From: Polyangiaceae bacterium
GTDB lineage: Bacteria > Myxococcota_A > Polyangia > Polyangiales > Polyangiaceae
NCBI GenBank assembly: GCA_013214025.1
Contig: JABSRN010000007.1
Span: 1 to 64,000 of the forward strand
Direction of reading: 5' to 3'
Length of the DNA stretch: 64,000 nt
The position numbers and the translations under genes were made by a program. Shown here one piece after another: positions 9,067-36,546 of the stretch (positions are counted from its first letter, which is position 1; each line of letters starts with the position of its first letter). The notes beneath the pieces were generated by a model, which was not told the DNA's origin, made no database searches, and saw only the letters and a list, made by a program, of their open reading frames with translations.

Positions 9067-9104
9067 TGATTGCCAGGCACTGCGCGCGCCGTGCCTGGCA
9101 ATCA
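9067..9104. repeat. 14-bp perfect inverted repeat (hairpin)
   Basis: Arm 9067-9080 (TGATTGCCAGGCAC) is the exact reverse complement of 9091-9104, with a 10-nt GC-rich loop. It lies just after the broken FecR gene and at the apparent 5' end of the HAD remnant. There is no T-run after either arm, so it is not a classical intrinsic terminator, although a stem this strong would fold in RNA of either strand. It may mark the breakpoint that removed the N-terminus of the HAD gene. Confidence 0.75.
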
Positions 9105-11291: not shown

Positions 11292-14200
11292 CTAGGCGAG
11301 ACGTGCCAGGCGCCGAGGAATGGCGGAAGTCCCCCCACCCTGACGGAGGCGCTTGGTCGCGTCCCAACGCTCGCCCTCGGACCGCCGTTCTCCGTCGGGA
11401 AGCGTCTCGTCCAGGTCAATGCGATCGCCCACTTTACGACCCACCAACACACCGTCACGAAACATCAGGCGATTGGCGGTCACCGCGGCAACGCGATCCC
11501 CTGGGAGCCGATCCGCTCATGTTGAGCGGATCGGCTCCGCTCAACACTACCCATTCGCCACGATCCCCACGCCGCCGCGCTTCGCGAATTTCAGCGATAG
11601 CGATGGGCAAAGCGAACTGCTCGCCGCTGAATCCCTCTACAAAACGTCCGCCACGAATGTCCCCTCGGGCTTCTAGCCGACGGTAAACGCGGTGCAGATC
11701 GCGCCACGGGATCAACAAGTTCTCCCGCTGCAATAACTTTCTGAACACGACGCCGTAGCGACGCAGCAGAGTTTGAGCGTAGGCCACACAGTGGGGGTCC
11801 GCGTCGCTGAAAGTCGCTTCGGGTTGTGCCTCACTCACGGGGAGCAGAGACCAGCGCCCGGCCGCATCCAAGCTCGGCCCGCCACGACTTCGGCGGCCTC
11901 GCGAACCACGTGACTTTTTCGAGGCGGGCGATAACAGGGCCGGGAGTCCAGCAAAACTGTCCGAACTCACTCGACCCAAGGACACCAACTCCGCGAGGGC
12001 TCCCTCCACTTCCACTTGCAGTAATCCGGTATGGCTCCGGATGTCCGACAGGAACGAAGCCCCCCGCTCGGACAGTACGGACTCGACACGAGCCGCCTGT
12101 CCGCCGGGCTCGAAGCGCTCGGATTTCTGGCGGGCGCTCAGCGCGTGCAGTGCGGCGAAGTCCTCCCGAGCGGCCAGCGCGACGGGGGTAGAACGCATCG
12201 GGCCGCTCAATCGTAAGCCCGCGGTGGCCGCCAAGGAGGGGGTGAAGCGCGCCCAGACCACCTGCCCCGATAGGCAAGAGTGATATCGTCGTTCACACCA
12301 CTCTTCGGTGTCCTCGTTCCGACTGTAGCGTCCGCGCATCACGATGCCCTCGGACTCTAGAGCCAGCAGCCCCCACTGAATGTCAGACACCGCTAGGCCG
12401 AAGTGTTCACCCAATGTCGAGGCCGTTATCGGTCCGAGCACTTCCAAGCGTGCCCGCAAGATCTGACGCAGGCACTCCTCTTTATCCGCTGAGGTCGGCG
12501 GGTGCGGACAATTCAACGGCGGCTCAACCTTTCTGCTCTCGTATATTTTACCGAATTACCAGACCCGCTCCGCTGGGATCCACAGCTCGAACTGCCCTTG
12601 GCTGAGCACTCCCGCACGTCCGGACTCCGCCAACTTCTGCAAGTCTGGCAACCAGCCTCCGGCCGCGACTTCCGCCGGCGTAAAGAAGCCCTGAAGAAGT
12701 AGGGCATCGTGCAATTCGTCGAGTCCCCAGGGCTCCGGCCATGCTTCTTCGCGGAGCCGGGCGATGGCCGCGCCATCCAACTGTCCAAGAGCCGCCGCCG
12801 TCTCTGGATCCAAAAAGCGTCGGGCACGCACTGCTTGTGTCCGGCGTTCTTCCAGCGGCGCGCCGTCAAGGAAAGCGTAGGGCCCCGCCGTGAGAATTTC
12901 CGTGGCCAGCGGAGACGGTTCTGTCAGATCACGCGCCACCAAACGTTTGTTGCCCGCCGCCATGTCACGCAAGAGCTCAACAAATCGGCCGAAATCCATC
13001 GCTTCCGAGAAACAATCCGCCATGGTCTGGTTCACCAGGGGGTGGTCGACTATTTCCCGAGGGCCGGCGATGTTGTCCTGGCAGGCGACTTGGTCGGGGA
13101 ACACGACGGTCATCAGGTCGTCCGCATCCATTCGCTGAAATCGGGGAGGCATTTTATTGCCTGAACGAAAGCGCAACACGGCCAAGGCTCTTGAGCTGTT
13201 CCAGCGCCAGCGTGTAATAAACATCGAGGCGTTCAGCACAGCTTGTTCCAGCGCGTGACGAGCCGATGCTGCTTGGACGTAGCCGTATACATCCTTGAGT
13301 TCGAAACTGTGGGTCGGTCCCAAACTCAGCACGATCGCATCGTCCCCGACGGCCGCCTGCAGCTCAAAATTGAACCGCTGACAAAATTTCTTTCGGAGAC
13401 TGAGCCCCCAGGCCCGGTTCAGCCGGCTTCCGAAGGGCGAATGCACAATCAGTTGCATATTCCCTGTGTCGTCGAAAAAGCGCTCCATCACCAGAGTGTC
13501 CTGGCTGGGCATCACTCCCAGCGCCGCCCGAGCGCTCGCCAGATACGCCACCAATTGCTCGGCGCCGGCAGAAGAGATCTCGCCCGCCACCAAATCCCGA
13601 ACTGCCTCCGCCATGGCACGTCGTCGGGATTCTGCATCCGCCGAGTCGAACTCTCCCAGATGTTGATCCGCGCGGATGCGTAGCTGCGATACCGCCACCG
13701 AAAGCTCCGCGCTCCGGGAGGGGGCTTCTCCTAGCCAGAACGGAATCGTAGGCGGCTGACCCTGTGCGTCGTGGACTCGGACGACTCCCGGCTCCACCTT
13801 GGAGATTTTCCAGGCATTGTTCCCCAGCTGAAAGATATCCCCCTGCATGCTTTCGATAGCAAAGTCCTCGTTCACGAAGCCCACCTTGTGCCCACTCGGA
13901 TCCAGGGTGACCTCGTAGTCCGCCGTTTCCGGAATAGCGCCCCCCGAAGTCATCGCAGCCAGTCCGGCACCGCGCCGCCCGCGGATTTACCGATTCACCG
14001 CGTCGTAGTGGATACGGGCCCCCCGCCGGCCTCGTCGAGTAGAAAAGCCGTTGGTGAGCATCTCCACGACCGCCCGGAACGATTCGGAACTCAGAGCGCG
14101 GTAGGAGTAACTGCCGCGAATCAGCGCGAGCAGCTCGTCCTCGGTCCATTCATCCGTGGCGGAACAAGCCACAATTTGCTGAGCCAGAATATCCAACGGC

Positions 14201-25308: not shown

Positions 25309-26163
25309 CTAGCGACCCGCCAGCGACTCCCGACGATACGGCGCTTCTTTCGTCCGGGGATGAATGCGCGGTGCCACATCAACCAACCAGCGCTCCACTA
25401 CATCGCGAGCGAGCTCCGGGTTGTCCCGCCACAGCACCACCACGGAAAAGATCAGACACGCTCCCGGGTACGCCGGGTAACCGACCCAGGCTGCCGTAAA
25501 GTGCTCCGACGTGAATCCGATGTTGACAAAACCGTCCACGGTCTTGGCGTCCAGCCGCTGACCGCGCCAAGTCACCTGACGTTCTTTCATCGGCTCCAGC
25601 CGGATCTGGTAGCGCCGCACATTGGGGCGCGCCCATTTCTCTGCCAGGCGCATGCATTTCTGACTCGTGGGGTGCTCAATGCCCGGTGTCTTGTTCACGA
25701 AGGCAACGTTCAAAGCGTGGTAATCCTTGCCGTAGCGGAACCCCGTAAAGTGGTTGATCAGACGAAAGCGAACGCGGCGCCAATTCTTCCAATCCGCCAG
25801 CGGCACGATCAACTGGTTGTCCTTGTCCCGCTGAGATCCCACCGATTCCGTGAGCTGTCGATTGAGGGCCGCGGTATGAGGATCTATGGCGTCACCTCCC
25901 GGTGCGTCCTGGGTCACGCTCGTCGGTGTCGGCGGTCGGCCGTCTCGCACAACGGCTTTTGGTGCACCACAGCCCAGAACACTCAGCGCCACCGCCCCCA
26001 AGAGTGCTCGCCACCACGCTGACTTCGCCAGGCCGCGATGGGTCTCGACCGCTCGAAGCCCAGAACTGGATGCCGAACGCTGACGTACCTTGAAGCCGCC
26101 AAAAACACAGGGGGACAGGACAGACGGGCGAAAGGACACAGGGGGGGAACTCAAATAGGCCAC
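25309..26163 (-). CDS. Lipoprotein of unknown function
   Basis: 284 residues in the longest frame. A convincing lipoprotein signal lies well inside it: SAWWRALLGAVALSVLGC (Cys at about residue 65), so the true start is probably later than ATG 26163, perhaps a CTG or TTG codon near 26031. I found no ATG or GTG at the ideal place. The mature part has no recognised family; segments such as RVRFRLINHFTGFRYGKDYHA and VGYPAYPGACLIFSVVVLW look like a globular beta-rich domain. No partner gene is clear. Confidence 0.6.
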   Translation of the reverse strand: MAYLSSPPVSFRPSVLSPCVFGGFKVRQRSASSSGLRAVETHRGLAKSAWWRALLGAVALSVLGCGAPKAVVRDGRPPTPTSVTQDAPGGDAIDPHTAALNRQLTESVGSQRDKDNQLIVPLADWKNWRRVRFRLINHFTGFRYGKDYHALNVAFVNKTPGIEHPTSQKCMRLAEKWARPNVRRYQIRLEPMKERQVTWRGQRLDAKTVDGFVNIGFTSEHFTAAWVGYPAYPGACLIFSVVVLWRDNPELARDVVERWLVDVAPRIHPRTKEAPYRRESLAGR

Positions 26164-26285
26164 AACAGTCGACAGTCAAGATACGGCATCGGTCGTTCTA
26201 GGCTTCCCCGAGCCTGTCACCCGGGCGTTCGCACAGTCAGGAGCATCCGCTTCGAGCGGCCGTTCAGCACGACCGCCGCTGGCCA

Positions 26286-26346
26286 GCATTCGCCATTTCG
26301 ACGCAACTCCGACAATTTGTCGGAGTTGTGTCGAAATGGCGAATGC
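26286..26346. repeat. 61-nt near-perfect palindrome
   Basis: Arm 26286-26315 and arm 26317-26346 are reverse complements over 30 bases with one G/T mismatch (G at 26302, T at 26330, which still pair as G-U in RNA). One T at 26316 is the centre. The inner part is CCGACAATTTGTCGG and the outer part GCATTCGCCATTTCGAC. It could act as a bidirectional transcription stop, a protein-binding site, or be the relic of a small mobile element. Confidence 0.85.
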
Positions 26347-26381
26347 AAACTATGTCTTTACATTTCCATAGCTTACCACAG

Positions 26382-26416
26382 GGCCGAGCCCGGATCGATC
26401 CGAACTGGGCTCGGCC
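26382..26416. repeat. 10-bp hairpin with a palindromic loop
   Basis: GGCCGAGCCC (26382-26391) pairs with GGGCTCGGCC (26407-26416); the 15-nt loop contains the palindrome GGATCGATCC. It lies about 100 nt downstream of the DUF362 stop codon on that gene's strand and may end its transcript, though no T-run follows. Confidence 0.6.
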
Positions 26417-26452
26417 GCGGGCGCGGCGGAGCTGAGCACGGCAACTCACAAC

Positions 26453-26498
26453 AGCGTGACCAATGACAACGAGAGCGTGACCAATGACAACGAGAGCG
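26453..26498. repeat. Tandem repeat, 21-nt unit, about 2.2 copies
   Basis: Unit AGCGTGACCAATGACAACGAG occurs at 26453-26473 and 26474-26494 without mismatch, and the next four bases restart it. It lies directly behind the DUF362 stop codon. In the plus direction the unit keeps an open frame (SVTNDNE-type repeat), but no gene encloses it. Confidence 0.85.
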
Positions 26499-26516
26499 CG
26501 CTGAAGGGAATGCTCG

Positions 26517-27635
26517 CTAGAGCGCGACGTGCTGGAGGCGGATGCGATTGAGATCGGCGATGCCGATGCCCATGTCCGAGGCGATGTTCACATAGCTGGG
26601 CTCTCGACCGACTTTAGCGAGGGAGGGCAGGCCGTTACTTTTGCGCGCGGCCTCGATGACGTCGATGCCGATACGATCGAGGGCCACAGGATCCGTAGCG
26701 ACATAAACGGCACCGTGGGGCAAGCGACGATCGGGCAGCTTGTCCAAAGGGCCGCCGTCGTAAATGATCTTGAACGCGTCAGTGATGTGCAACCGCACGC
26801 GACTCTGCAACACCGGGTGGTTGTACAAGACGGGGATTTGCGGGCTGCACAGGTGCGCGTGATGTTTGTGCGGGTTCACGATCTGCCCGTGGGTCATGTT
26901 CTTGAGCGCACCGGTGAAGCCGCAAATCGAGTGATCCTTCATCATGGTCATGTCGATGATGGCGGTCGCGTCCGTCACCGCCGTGACAAACCGTGTCTTG
27001 ATGTTTTGGTAGATGGCCACCTCGGGCATCTTGGTTCGGAAGTTGCCGTGAAAACTCGTGACCACGCCGGCGGGCAAGTCATAACCGTCCACGCCAATTC
27101 GCGTGCCCTTGAGGAAATCCGGAAACTGTTCGAACAGGTGGATGTTGGGCGCCGGTACGCCGAGTGTTATCAACGCTTCGACCAGCGGCAAGATCAGCTC
27201 GAAGTTCACCGCCACCGTGTAGCCGTGCTGCCCGGCGATGCCGTTCACCTTGATCGCGACCTTATCGTCCTTGTGAATGAAGCGGCCGACTGCATCAACC
27301 ATGTTGGGCGCGCCGGTAAATTCCATGAGCGCGCGCTCGAGCATCATTTTTGCGACTTCGGCTTTGGGCCACAGCTCATTCTTTTGCATCAAAGACGCGT
27401 AGTCGTTGCCGCGAGTGATCTTGACGACCTTGCCGGGTACTCGAAACGGCACGAAACCTGCCGGAGGAGCCGCGTTCCATGCCGCCAGCGAGTCGCCGCT
27501 AGTCAACGTCGCAGTCGTTCCCGCCACCACGGCCAAGGAGCGAGCCAGCCAGCTACGCGAGCCCATCGCCGCCCCCAGCCCCAACGCGCCGGAGACAAAC
27601 TGCCGACGACCGACGGGCTGATGAAGACTGGACAT
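26517..27635 (-). CDS. DUF362 domain protein with twin-arginine signal
   Basis: 372 residues. The N-terminus has GRRQFVSGALGLGAAMG, a Tat-like twin-Arg motif and hydrophobic stretch, so the folded protein is probably exported, perhaps with a bound cofactor. The DUF362 body shows DDKVAIKVNGIAGQHG, MTMMKDHSICGFTGALKNM, GQIVNPHKHHAH and VATDPVALDRIGIDVIE. The C-terminal Cys-rich ferredoxin domain found in some DUF362 proteins is absent. Function unknown. It is transcribed divergently from the FAD-SelD fusion gene, sharing a ~100-nt promoter region. Confidence 0.88.
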   Translation of the reverse strand: MSSLHQPVGRRQFVSGALGLGAAMGSRSWLARSLAVVAGTTATLTSGDSLAAWNAAPPAGFVPFRVPGKVVKITRGNDYASLMQKNELWPKAEVAKMMLERALMEFTGAPNMVDAVGRFIHKDDKVAIKVNGIAGQHGYTVAVNFELILPLVEALITLGVPAPNIHLFEQFPDFLKGTRIGVDGYDLPAGVVTSFHGNFRTKMPEVAIYQNIKTRFVTAVTDATAIIDMTMMKDHSICGFTGALKNMTHGQIVNPHKHHAHLCSPQIPVLYNHPVLQSRVRLHITDAFKIIYDGGPLDKLPDRRLPHGAVYVATDPVALDRIGIDVIEAARKSNGLPSLAKVGREPSYVNIASDMGIGIADLNRIRLQHVAL

Positions 27636-27735
27636 GCGGGGATGATACTCGAAGCTGGGCTTGATTATCCAAGGCTTTGCGGCCCGGGAACGTCGTGGCA
27701 GGGTCGCTCGCCCACCGATTTACGGCCTTCTGCCC

Positions 27736-29967
27736 ATGCTCGCCCCAGCCAAAAAAAAACAGCTCGTGCTCATCGGCGGGGGCCATGCTCATATCCAGGT
27801 GCTCAAGCGCTTCGCCATGAAGCCGCTAAGCGACATGGCTATCACGCTCATTAGCGACCGTGACGTGGGGATTTACTCCGGCATGGTGCCGGGCCTGATC
27901 GCCGGAAGCTACCAAGCCGAAGAGCTGCAGATCGATCTCGTGCCCTTGGCGGCCTTGGCGGGCGCGCGTTTCGTCCGAGACGCCGCTACCAGCATACAAA
28001 CAACAGAGCGGCAGATCACCTTGGGCAGCCGTCCCCCGATAAACTACGATATCGTCTCGCTCAATCTCGGGGCCCCCATCGCCGGCGCCGACTTGCCCGG
28101 AGTACGAGAGTTCGCCTTGCCAACACGGCCCATCGCGAAACTGACGGACGCGCTGGGTTCTCTGGACAAACGAGTGGCTCAGGGCGAGCCCGACGCGCCC
28201 GTCGTGGTCGTGGGCGGCGGCGCGGGGGGCGTGGAAATTGCGTTTTGCGTGGCAGCGCGTTTGGCTTCTGGGGGCGTGAAGGTTCGACTGATCGCTGCCA
28301 GCTCGCGTCTGTTGCCGGATCGAGCACGCGCTGTCGCCGACGCCGTGATGGCAGCGGCTCGGACTCGCGGCATCGACATCGTGCTTGGGCAACGCGTGAC
28401 TTCCGTAAGCGAAAACCAGCTCGGCCTGCAGAGCGGCGAACACATGCCTCACCGGGGTGTATGCTGGACTGTCGGCGTGACGGGCCCGGAGTGGTTCGCG
28501 GACAGTCAACTACCGGTGGATGCCGGTGGCTTCGTGCTGACAGATTCCTTCTTGCGCGTCGTGGGCCACAGCAATGTGTTCGCCGCCGGGGACTGCGCCA
28601 CTTTGCAGGAACACCCTGAGTTACCCAAAGCCGGTGTGTACGCCGTTCGGCAGGGGCCGGTACTGGCGGACAACCTACGAGCGAGGGCCAACAGGACGGC
28701 ACTAAAACGCTACGAGCCCCAACAAGACTATTTGGGATTGCTCGATCTCGGGGACGGCACCGCCATCGGAACCAAGTGGGGCCAGGTCCGTCAGGGACGC
28801 TGGGTGATGCGACTCAAGCGACGTATCGACCGTGCCTTCATAAAAAATTTTCAGGCGCTCGATAGCGAGGGCCGCGTGCAGCCCAGCTTTCGAAAACTCT
28901 TCGAAATGGACGAAGAGATGAGCTGCGGAGGATGCGCCGCCAAGTTGCCCGCTCAGAGCTTGGAGCGAGCGCTGCGAAATGTTGCGGGCTCTGACGCCGA
29001 GCATTTGGGCAGCGCCGATTCAACAGTGCTACTCGGTCTCGATCTCGCCGATGATGCCGCCGCCTATCGCACTTCTAGCGGCGACATCGTGGTGCGCAGT
29101 GTCGATGTCTTCAAAGCCTTCAGTGACGACAGCTACGTGGTTGGCCAGGTCGCTGCCATGAACGCCATTAGCGATCTCTACGCTTGCGGGGCAACGCCCC
29201 GACACGCCCTGGCTCTGCTCAGTCTGCCGGAGCACGAGAGCCCCCGTCACAATGAAGCCACCCTCAGCGAGGTGCTGGCCGGCGCCCGCGTGGTATTCGC
29301 GCACGAAGGCGTCCACCTGCTGGGCGGACACACGACGATCGCCAGCGAGCTATCCGTAGGGTTTTCCGTGGATGGCAGCATCGATGAGGAGAGCCAACTG
29401 CTGCGCCTGGATGCCATGGTACCGGGTAACGCCCTCGTGCTCACCAAAGCCTTGGGCACCGGCACGTTGTTGTTAGCGGATCGCCTCGGCCGGGCCCGCG
29501 CCTCGGACCGAGCCGCTCTGTACTCTTCTATGTTGCGTAGCAACGGTCCTGCCGCAGCTTTGGCGGTAAAAACACAGCTTGTGGCCGCCACTGACGTTTC
29601 CGGATTTGGTTTGGCCTACCACCTGCACGAAATGGTCGCAAAAAGCGGAGTCAGCGCCACACTGTATTTGAGCCGCTTGCCGCTATTGCCGGGGACCGCG
29701 TCGCTCATGCAAGACGGTCTGCGCAGTAGTGCCCATCCTTTCAACAGCCAGGTGGGCGCCAAGCTTCGTGTTGATGACGCAGCCAGGCAACACCCGGTAC
29801 TGCCTACCCTGTACGATCCCCAAACCTCCGGCGGCCTGATCATCGCGCTGCCCCAAGCTCAAGCGAAAGATTTTGTGAATCAGCTTCACGAGCTCGGGGA
29901 TCCCTCGGCCGCAGTTATCGGCGAGGCAATGTCGTCGGAGCCCCCGACCCTCCGAATCTCCGTCTAA
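27736..29967 (+). CDS. selD: FAD-dependent oxidoreductase fused to selenide, water dikinase (SelD)
   Basis: 743 residues from ATG 27736. Residues 1-380 form a pyridine-nucleotide-disulfide oxidoreductase-like module: FAD site LVLIGGGHAHIQVLKRF, NAD-like VVVVGGGAGGVEIAF, and VFAAGDCATL. Residues 390-743 are SelD: MSCGGCAAK with Cys400 and Lys403 in the spacing of E. coli Cys17/Lys20, then SVDVFKAFSDDSYVVG, LLGGHTTIASEL, TKALGTGTLL and LYDPQTSGGLI. SelD makes selenophosphate from selenide and ATP; the oxidoreductase half may reduce the selenium source. This fusion type is known from cyanobacteria and other bacteria. No selA, selB or tRNA-Sec is seen in the window. The start was chosen because homologues begin just before the Rossmann motif. 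Confidence 0.93.
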   Translation: MLAPAKKKQLVLIGGGHAHIQVLKRFAMKPLSDMAITLISDRDVGIYSGMVPGLIAGSYQAEELQIDLVPLAALAGARFVRDAATSIQTTERQITLGSRPPINYDIVSLNLGAPIAGADLPGVREFALPTRPIAKLTDALGSLDKRVAQGEPDAPVVVVGGGAGGVEIAFCVAARLASGGVKVRLIAASSRLLPDRARAVADAVMAAARTRGIDIVLGQRVTSVSENQLGLQSGEHMPHRGVCWTVGVTGPEWFADSQLPVDAGGFVLTDSFLRVVGHSNVFAAGDCATLQEHPELPKAGVYAVRQGPVLADNLRARANRTALKRYEPQQDYLGLLDLGDGTAIGTKWGQVRQGRWVMRLKRRIDRAFIKNFQALDSEGRVQPSFRKLFEMDEEMSCGGCAAKLPAQSLERALRNVAGSDAEHLGSADSTVLLGLDLADDAAAYRTSSGDIVVRSVDVFKAFSDDSYVVGQVAAMNAISDLYACGATPRHALALLSLPEHESPRHNEATLSEVLAGARVVFAHEGVHLLGGHTTIASELSVGFSVDGSIDEESQLLRLDAMVPGNALVLTKALGTGTLLLADRLGRARASDRAALYSSMLRSNGPAAALAVKTQLVAATDVSGFGLAYHLHEMVAKSGVSATLYLSRLPLLPGTASLMQDGLRSSAHPFNSQVGAKLRVDDAARQHPVLPTLYDPQTSGGLIIALPQAQAKDFVNQLHELGDPSAAVIGEAMSSEPPTLRISV

Positions 29968-34599: not shown

Positions 34600-36546
34600 A
34601 TGGTGAGTAGGGGTCCTCAATCGACGAAACTCGTAGCGGCGTTGGTCGGACTGGTCGCGGCTATCGCGCCTCGGCACAGCGCAGCGCAATCCCTCGACTT
34701 GCGAGGTGCACTCGTGCCAGTTCACCCCACCGGGACCAGCTCCACAGAGCCAACAGAGACCCAAGGTCATCTAAATTACAACGTGGGAGCCTGGTTCTCC
34801 CACGGTTATCGCGCCCTGACTCTCGAGGACACCAACGGGAACACCGTCGCCACTCCGCTTGAGCACCAGAGCACTGTCGATATGGTTGCGGGTTTAGGCC
34901 TCGGAGACTCTTTCGATGTCAGTCTAGTGCTGCCGACCGCGGTGTATCAGCGCGGCGATGAGATGCCGGCTGTCACCGGCAAGGGCGCGATGCCCTCGGC
35001 CGCCATCGGAGATCTATCGTTGCGTGCCAAAGTGGAACTCATCGGGCTCGACAAACTCGCGGGTTTCAGCCTCAGCGCCATCGCGGATGTAACGGCCCCC
35101 ACTGGCAGTGCCGATTCCTACCTAGGAGACGGCGAGACCCGCTTTGGCAGCCGAGTCTTGGGCGAACTGTCTCTGCTGGTGATCTCGCTGCGGGGTTCCG
35201 TCGGGAGCCAATTTCGTACCCATCACGAGGACTACTTGGGCACCCGCTTCGGCGACGTGTTGCCTTGGGCCGCCGGATTGTTGATTCGACCCCAGGCCTT
35301 CGGTCTCGACGACGAGGGTCGTTGGGAAGCATTCCTCGACACCCGCGGTCAGCTCGCGATGCGACCGGACTTCGCCGATAGCAACGCCTCCAACGCGTTT
35401 TGGAGCGCTTCGGCCCGTTACACCGTGGGGGATTTCTCCACGCTGCTCAGCGCGGAGCTACCCATCACCACCTCCGTCGGCAGCCCCGCGGTCCGGGGCA
35501 CTCTCGCCCTCGGGTGGTCACCAAGATTTTACGACGTCGACCAAGACGGCCTCGGCGACGAAGAAGACGAGTGCCCGGAACTAGAAGAAGATCTCGATGG
35601 CTTCGAAGATGAGGACGGCTGCCCCGACTGGGACAATGACAACGACGGCGTCGGCGACGAAGAAGACAAGTGCCCCGACGAGCAAGAAGACGAAGACGAC
35701 TTCGAAGATGAGGACGGCTGTCTGGACGCCGACAACGACCAGGACAAGATCCCGGACGAAAGGGACGAATGTCCCGATGAGCCCGGCGAGGCCGGAGCCT
35801 CTCGCCTGGGTTGCCCCATCGGCGACACAGACAATGACGGCGTCCCTGACAATCAGGACCGCTGCCCCAAGACGGCAGAAGATCGGGACGGCTTCCAAGA
35901 CAACGACGGCTGTGTCGATGCCGACAACGACAACGACAACATCATCGACACACTCGACGCTTGTCCGGACAAAGCAGGGCCACCCCAATCTGACGCTAAG
36001 CAGAACGGTTGTCCCAATCCCGACACGGACGGCGACACCTGGCTGGCACCCGACGATCGCTGTCCCAACGAACCCGAAGACTTCGACGGCAACGACGATA
36101 GCGACGGTTGCCCGGATGCGCCCAGCCCTGCGACCGCCTGGGTTCGATGGACTGACAGAAGCCTTGGCGACTCCCAGCTGAGTTGGAAACAAGCGCCGAG
36201 CTTCCAGAGCGCGAACAGCGCTGAGCTCAGCGCTGACGGGATCACGATTTTGCGTGCCGTCGTGACCGAGTTGAATCGGCACCCGGGGCACGTGCTCGGT
36301 GTCGGCGTCAAAGCCCGCGGCGTCGCCCCTGAGCCAAGCCAACTAGCCCTCACCCGCTCCTTTGCGATCGTGCATCAGCTTCGACGGCTCGCCCATTCCG
36401 ACACGGCTGCTGAGTCCCTCAGTTTCGCAGCCGTAAGCGACTTGCCCACGGCCCGCCGGGGCGGTATCGGGCTGCGAATCATGAAAGCCACAGGCTCTCC
36501 CGCCCGTGCGCAAAAGGCGGGAACCAGCCCGTCTGAGAAACGGTGA
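34600..36546 (+). CDS. Outer-membrane protein with thrombospondin type-3 repeats
   Basis: 648 residues. Signal peptide LVAALVGLVAAIAPRHSAAQ is followed by a beta-rich region of about 280 residues (barrel-like alternation, GLGLGDSFDVSLVLPTAVY). Then come about nine calcium-binding TSP3 repeats from residue 310 to 510, each with the pattern DxDxDGxxDxxDxCP (for example DNDNDGVGDEEDKCPD). The last 140 residues resemble a worn OmpA-like domain (ILRAVVTELNRHPGHVLGV) that normally binds peptidoglycan; its conserved Asp/Arg pair is not evident. The stop overlaps the start of the next gene by four bases (GTGA), so the two are translationally coupled. Confidence 0.85.
   Translation: MVSRGPQSTKLVAALVGLVAAIAPRHSAAQSLDLRGALVPVHPTGTSSTEPTETQGHLNYNVGAWFSHGYRALTLEDTNGNTVATPLEHQSTVDMVAGLGLGDSFDVSLVLPTAVYQRGDEMPAVTGKGAMPSAAIGDLSLRAKVELIGLDKLAGFSLSAIADVTAPTGSADSYLGDGETRFGSRVLGELSLLVISLRGSVGSQFRTHHEDYLGTRFGDVLPWAAGLLIRPQAFGLDDEGRWEAFLDTRGQLAMRPDFADSNASNAFWSASARYTVGDFSTLLSAELPITTSVGSPAVRGTLALGWSPRFYDVDQDGLGDEEDECPELEEDLDGFEDEDGCPDWDNDNDGVGDEEDKCPDEQEDEDDFEDEDGCLDADNDQDKIPDERDECPDEPGEAGASRLGCPIGDTDNDGVPDNQDRCPKTAEDRDGFQDNDGCVDADNDNDNIIDTLDACPDKAGPPQSDAKQNGCPNPDTDGDTWLAPDDRCPNEPEDFDGNDDSDGCPDAPSPATAWVRWTDRSLGDSQLSWKQAPSFQSANSAELSADGITILRAVVTELNRHPGHVLGVGVKARGVAPEPSQLALTRSFAIVHQLRRLAHSDTAAESLSFAAVSDLPTARRGGIGLRIMKATGSPARAQKAGTSPSEKR

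Follow-up and report, generated by a model that had tools for sequence, protein, structure and literature searches.

A 61-nt palindrome in a Polyangiaceae genome and its possible origin as a mirrored intergenic repeat

Between two genes of a Polyangiaceae bacterium lies a long, near-perfect palindrome. Is it a regulatory site, a transcript end, a copy of a dispersed element, or an error of assembly? The window that we analysed (a whole stretch of 64,000 nt) holds this 61-nt sequence, GCATTCGCCATTTCGACGCAACTCCGACAATTTGTCGGAGTTGTGTCGAAATGGCGAATGC, at 26286-26346, and its surroundings contain the following features.

The palindrome and its neighbourhood

26517-27635, minus strand: DUF362 gene
25309-26163, minus strand: lipoprotein-like gene (reading frame; true start probably lower)
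26164-26516, no strand: lineage-specific intergenic stretch (comparison with six relatives)
26382-26416, no strand: second inverted repeat, G+C-rich, with 16-nt arms that are 88% alike, located after the DUF362 stop and before the palindrome (no T-tract)
26448-26489, no strand: a 21-nt direct repeat, present twice in tandem within the gene-free stretch

The palindrome consists of two 30-nt arms (26286-26315 and 26317-26346) around one central base, with 29 of 30 positions forming Watson-Crick pairs and a single G-T pair at 26303/26329. An earlier note had described this pairing as complete if the G-T was counted, and had placed it in a gene-free stretch. The arm coordinates, fold and hairpin scan bore out the former, and the latter was made precise by its placement between the DUF362 and lipoprotein-like genes. 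Folded as RNA, the palindrome reached -53.5 kcal/mol (z -14.3), which no shuffled sequence equaled. In a hairpin scan of the window it scored 29 against 16 for the runner-up, and ten random controls of the same trinucleotide make-up contained no hairpins scoring 13 or more. The 61-nt palindrome is thus a real observation, far beyond chance. The note's further remark that long perfect palindromes are normally unstable was overstated at 61 bp; palindrome instability in E. coli concerns much longer palindromes.

The window contained other structures. Strong hairpins at 11504-11538 and 9067-9104 (scores 16 and 15.5) were unrelated in sequence to the palindrome, and diverged direct repeats, 73-75% alike with spacings of about 100 and 190 nt, occupied 35539-35943. 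A single plus-strand reading frame at 27661-29967 matched a pyridine nucleotide-disulphide oxidoreductase followed by AIR synthase domains, and resembles an oxidoreductase-selenide water dikinase fusion.

We asked whether the palindrome belongs to the neighbouring genes. The order of DUF362 followed by the lipoprotein gene was kept in six relatives, none of which had a strong hairpin between the two. Measured from the DUF362 stop as far as residue 75 of the lipoprotein, the gap was 575 nt here but 113-202 nt in the relatives. The longer gap and the missing hairpins imply that the palindrome lies in DNA that this lineage has acquired or lengthened. A copy conserved upstream of the same gene, which the earlier note had named as the sign of regulation, was therefore not found, and a regulatory site of the gene pair kept in the same place was present in none of the six. 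A gene-specific role at the window site is not indicated, and we infer that there is none.

A two-dyad motif family within the genome

The full 30-nt arm was single-copy in the 5.77-Mb draft genome. However, the inner ~40 bp of the palindrome recurred at seven other loci of the same genome, found by searching with up to three mismatches and then with a sequence profile. The parts of the palindrome and the other copies are as follows.

26286-26346, no strand: 61-nt palindrome, two mirrored ~40-bp motif copies with a common central dyad (arms, fold, hairpin scan, profile)
26308-26324, no strand: unit 1, central 17-bp dyad TCCGACA-ATT-TGTCGGA, the best-conserved part of the family (motif comparison)
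26327-26343, plus strand: unit 2, right outer unit, its centre 19 bp away from that of the central dyad; weakly matching, yet in family register (profile; score reached at 0.04% of positions)
26289-26305, minus strand: left outer unit, which repeats the right outer unit in inverted orientation with a single C/T difference (arm comparison, profile)
C11:43421, C183:1523, C46:70215, C145:56317, C145:15033, C43:19672 and C56:623-662: other motif loci (mismatch search and profile)

The family follows the pattern TYCGACA-NNN-TGTCGGA-GTTN-YGNCA-NNN-TGKCGNA, that is, two 17-bp dyads 19 bp apart. The motif starts with CTCCGACA, and the palindrome ends in GCATTC. Half-sites were conserved around variable, A/T-rich dyad centres, while the linker GAGTT, with its conserved GTT between the dyads, was kept as well as the half-sites. 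A third dyad at equal spacing was present at C183 and C46. As a control for circularity, the profile was rebuilt without the window copy, and it still recovered both window arms (E 1.5e-6 and 2.5e-6). Scored alone over 272,146 positions, the outer part reached the highest 0.04-0.07% at the very place expected for unit 2, a figure that is rough given the small training set.

Three of the eight loci (C183, C46 and C145:56317) were duplicates, two of them truncated, that are alike over ~300 nt of DNA downstream and in the opening part of a DUF1016 gene, which leaves about six independent placements. Flanks were otherwise unrelated among loci, and no target-site duplications were seen in the flank comparison. 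The alternatives raised by the earlier note, small inverted-repeat elements on the one hand and an operator on the other, fared differently. It had named many genomic copies with flanking duplications as the sign of a mobile element. The recurrence of the inner ~40 bp speaks for a repeat family, but flanking duplications did not appear, and a conserved operator is contradicted by the six relatives that have the gene pair and lack the site.

An assembly artefact is extremely improbable. Although a fold-back or chimera might be suspected in a draft genome of 184 contigs, the arms differ at one base, the flanks are not mirrored, and related motifs exist at other loci.

Outside the source genome, none of the remaining 182 genomes of the order contained the exact motif, and among 377 genomes of the phylum (376 besides the source) the profile had no match there at E 0.001 or better; the genomes searched (183 of the order, 377 of the phylum) included no genus-mate. 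A weak profile match in one relative within the order (G138:C31:146; E 0.003 in that genome, with 183 searched) was left uncounted. Plasmid and phage collections had no match, nor did a collection of genome contigs contain the exact 20-nt arm. Several other candidates were set aside. Matches to a looser motif in gut Bacteroidales, one Clostridia and one Colwellia were judged unrelated, having unrelated flanks and being mostly one repeated Bacteroidales sequence. A viral contig match was attributed to chance (19 nt within an open reading frame, with no dyad), as was a single Rfam snoRNA match below the gathering score and away from the palindrome. Inspection by eye at C183 did not find the features of integron attC boxes.

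Genomic placement and competing readings

Copies of the motif occupied mixed positions relative to genes. The C11 copy was ~20 nt past an XRE-type gene and ahead of an opposite-strand reading frame, the C43 copy ~50 nt past a beta-helix gene, and the C56 copy ~30 nt past a gene of no known identity; all three were 22-54 nt beyond stop codons. The C145:15033 copy was upstream of two divergent genes.

The genes near some copies have features of their own. At C183 (L022, 1729-2532), a DUF1016_N domain is fused to a staphylococcal-nuclease-like domain adjoining a Fic/Doc gene, and truncated copies of this gene were found at C46 and C145. A 47-nt direct repeat (87%; L022 1484-1529 and 2590-2635) was present on both sides of the DUF1016 gene, and a sequence resembling it was also found at L073 713-756. 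A small gene and the XRE-type gene after it, at L023 7857-8401, resemble a HigBA-like toxin-antitoxin pair; the motif lies immediately downstream.

Positions past stop codons are consistent with a hairpin ending or stabilizing transcripts in both directions, as are the great stability of the palindrome as RNA and the substitutions in the central dyad, which changed pairs mostly to G-U on the same strand. However, no pair of the central dyad was changed on both sides among family copies, so RNA-level pairing is only hinted at. No T-tract follows the palindrome on either strand, unlike the stem of an intrinsic terminator, and other copies are upstream of genes. We consider this role very improbable.

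Phage and antitoxin repressors bind operators built of tandem 17-bp dyads, a resemblance that raises the reading of the sites as an operator array for a dimeric DNA-binding protein, such as an XRE-type repressor or antitoxin, with three dyads in the window. The conserved half-sites, variable A/T-rich centers and constant 19-bp spacing would suit such a protein, as would the three successive dyads upstream of DUF1016 genes at C183 and C46 and the proximity of copies to toxin-antitoxin-like genes at C183 and C11. Unlike those operators, the sites also occur at gene ends, their linker is conserved, and the partner protein is only putative. None of the C11, C56 and C43 copies stands at a promoter: the first is flanked by convergent frames, and the other two come shortly after stop codons. 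Relatives sharing the gene pair lack the site. With some copies upstream and some 3' of genes, the mixed locations appear a poor match for a promoter operator and would suit dispersed repeats. We consider an operator array unlikely.

A third reading treats the motif as the transposase-binding end of a lost or unassembled transposon, with TGTCGGAGTT... as the terminal repeat and the window copy as two ends placed head to head across a 3-bp spacer, like an end-to-end junction. TGT opens the putative ends, the motif is where the copies of the duplicated DUF1016 region become homologous, and insertion sequences are often absent from draft assemblies. However, no second inverted copy was found within the several kb searched around sites, no motif-flanked transposase occurred in the loci read, and the outside half TCCGACA was also present at the sites, which places the boundary elsewhere than at TGT. 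These observations make transposon ends improbable.

We favor a different explanation, to which we assign roughly an even chance: the palindrome is a copy of an intergenic repeat that is short, confined to this lineage and present in few copies, and that behaves like REPs or MITEs; one half of the palindrome was most likely mirrored by a template switch. The basic unit would be ~40 bp, in which the conserved GTT linker joins two dyads, the first of 17 bp and the second at 19-bp spacing, and it may have spread between genes in this genome by copying. A linker as well kept as the half-sites suggests common descent by copying over independent binding sites, and it is why a repeat family was preferred to an operator regulon. 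The repeat looks to have spread recently. Against this explanation, no mobilizing enzyme was found, tags and target duplications were not seen, placements are few, and half-sites around variable A/T-rich triplets would equally fit protein-binding sites.

The window copy would be the motif plus its own mirror image with the central dyad in common. The outer unit flanked the central dyad on either side in this copy alone (29/30 alike); elsewhere, sequence to the left of that dyad was unrelated, except that C56 prolongs the palindrome by a few bases. The two window arms were identical save for one position in 30, yet their outer units stood much further from the family, as is expected of a late inverted copy. 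The left half probably arose when replication switched template at the central dyad, so that one side was copied in inverted form onto the other. Template switching is documented as creating and perfecting hairpins (PMC8794818; PMC7202029). The hairpin could form in single-stranded DNA or in RNA.

Comparison with described repeats

REP elements are GTAG- and CGTC-tagged palindromic repeats (PMC3733652). Like them, the motif is palindromic, falls in the 20-40 bp range, is dispersed between genes, and occurs as dimers and hairpins. It differs in its two-dyad build and low copy number (eight loci only). No GTAG or CGTC tetranucleotide stands at the stem end, and the RAYT transposase of GTAG-type REPs (Y1_Tnp, PF01797) was not found in the 97%-complete genome; CGTC REPs have no dedicated transposase. 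Lacking both tag and Y1_Tnp match, the palindrome was not filed as a REP. Bacterial MITEs and small mobile sequences (PMC2229807) are likewise short, non-coding, intergenic and built of inverted repeats, but no matching transposase is known here, and the palindrome is an inverted repeat throughout, with no common flanks, rather than a sequence bounded by terminal repeats. Since no target duplications were seen, MITE status is not shown. Quasipalindromes produced by template switching (PMC7202029, PMC8794818) share near-perfect arms around a pre-existing imperfect inverted repeat, whereas the present case comes without an ancestor sequence showing the event.

A more far-reaching possibility is that the sites represent a new family of lineage-specific mobile palindromes, with a pair of 17-bp dyads as their build and no Y1 transposase behind their spread, or else mark the ends of a transposon not yet described, one that would have duplicated the DUF1016-nuclease genes and whose end-to-end junction the palindrome would be. 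We regard this as decidedly unlikely. Under the favored explanation, a striking lone palindrome becomes explicable as the mirrored copy of a small repeat. Eight defined sites in one genome may offer a testbed for how short palindromes spread when no RAYT is known, or for a small operator regulon.
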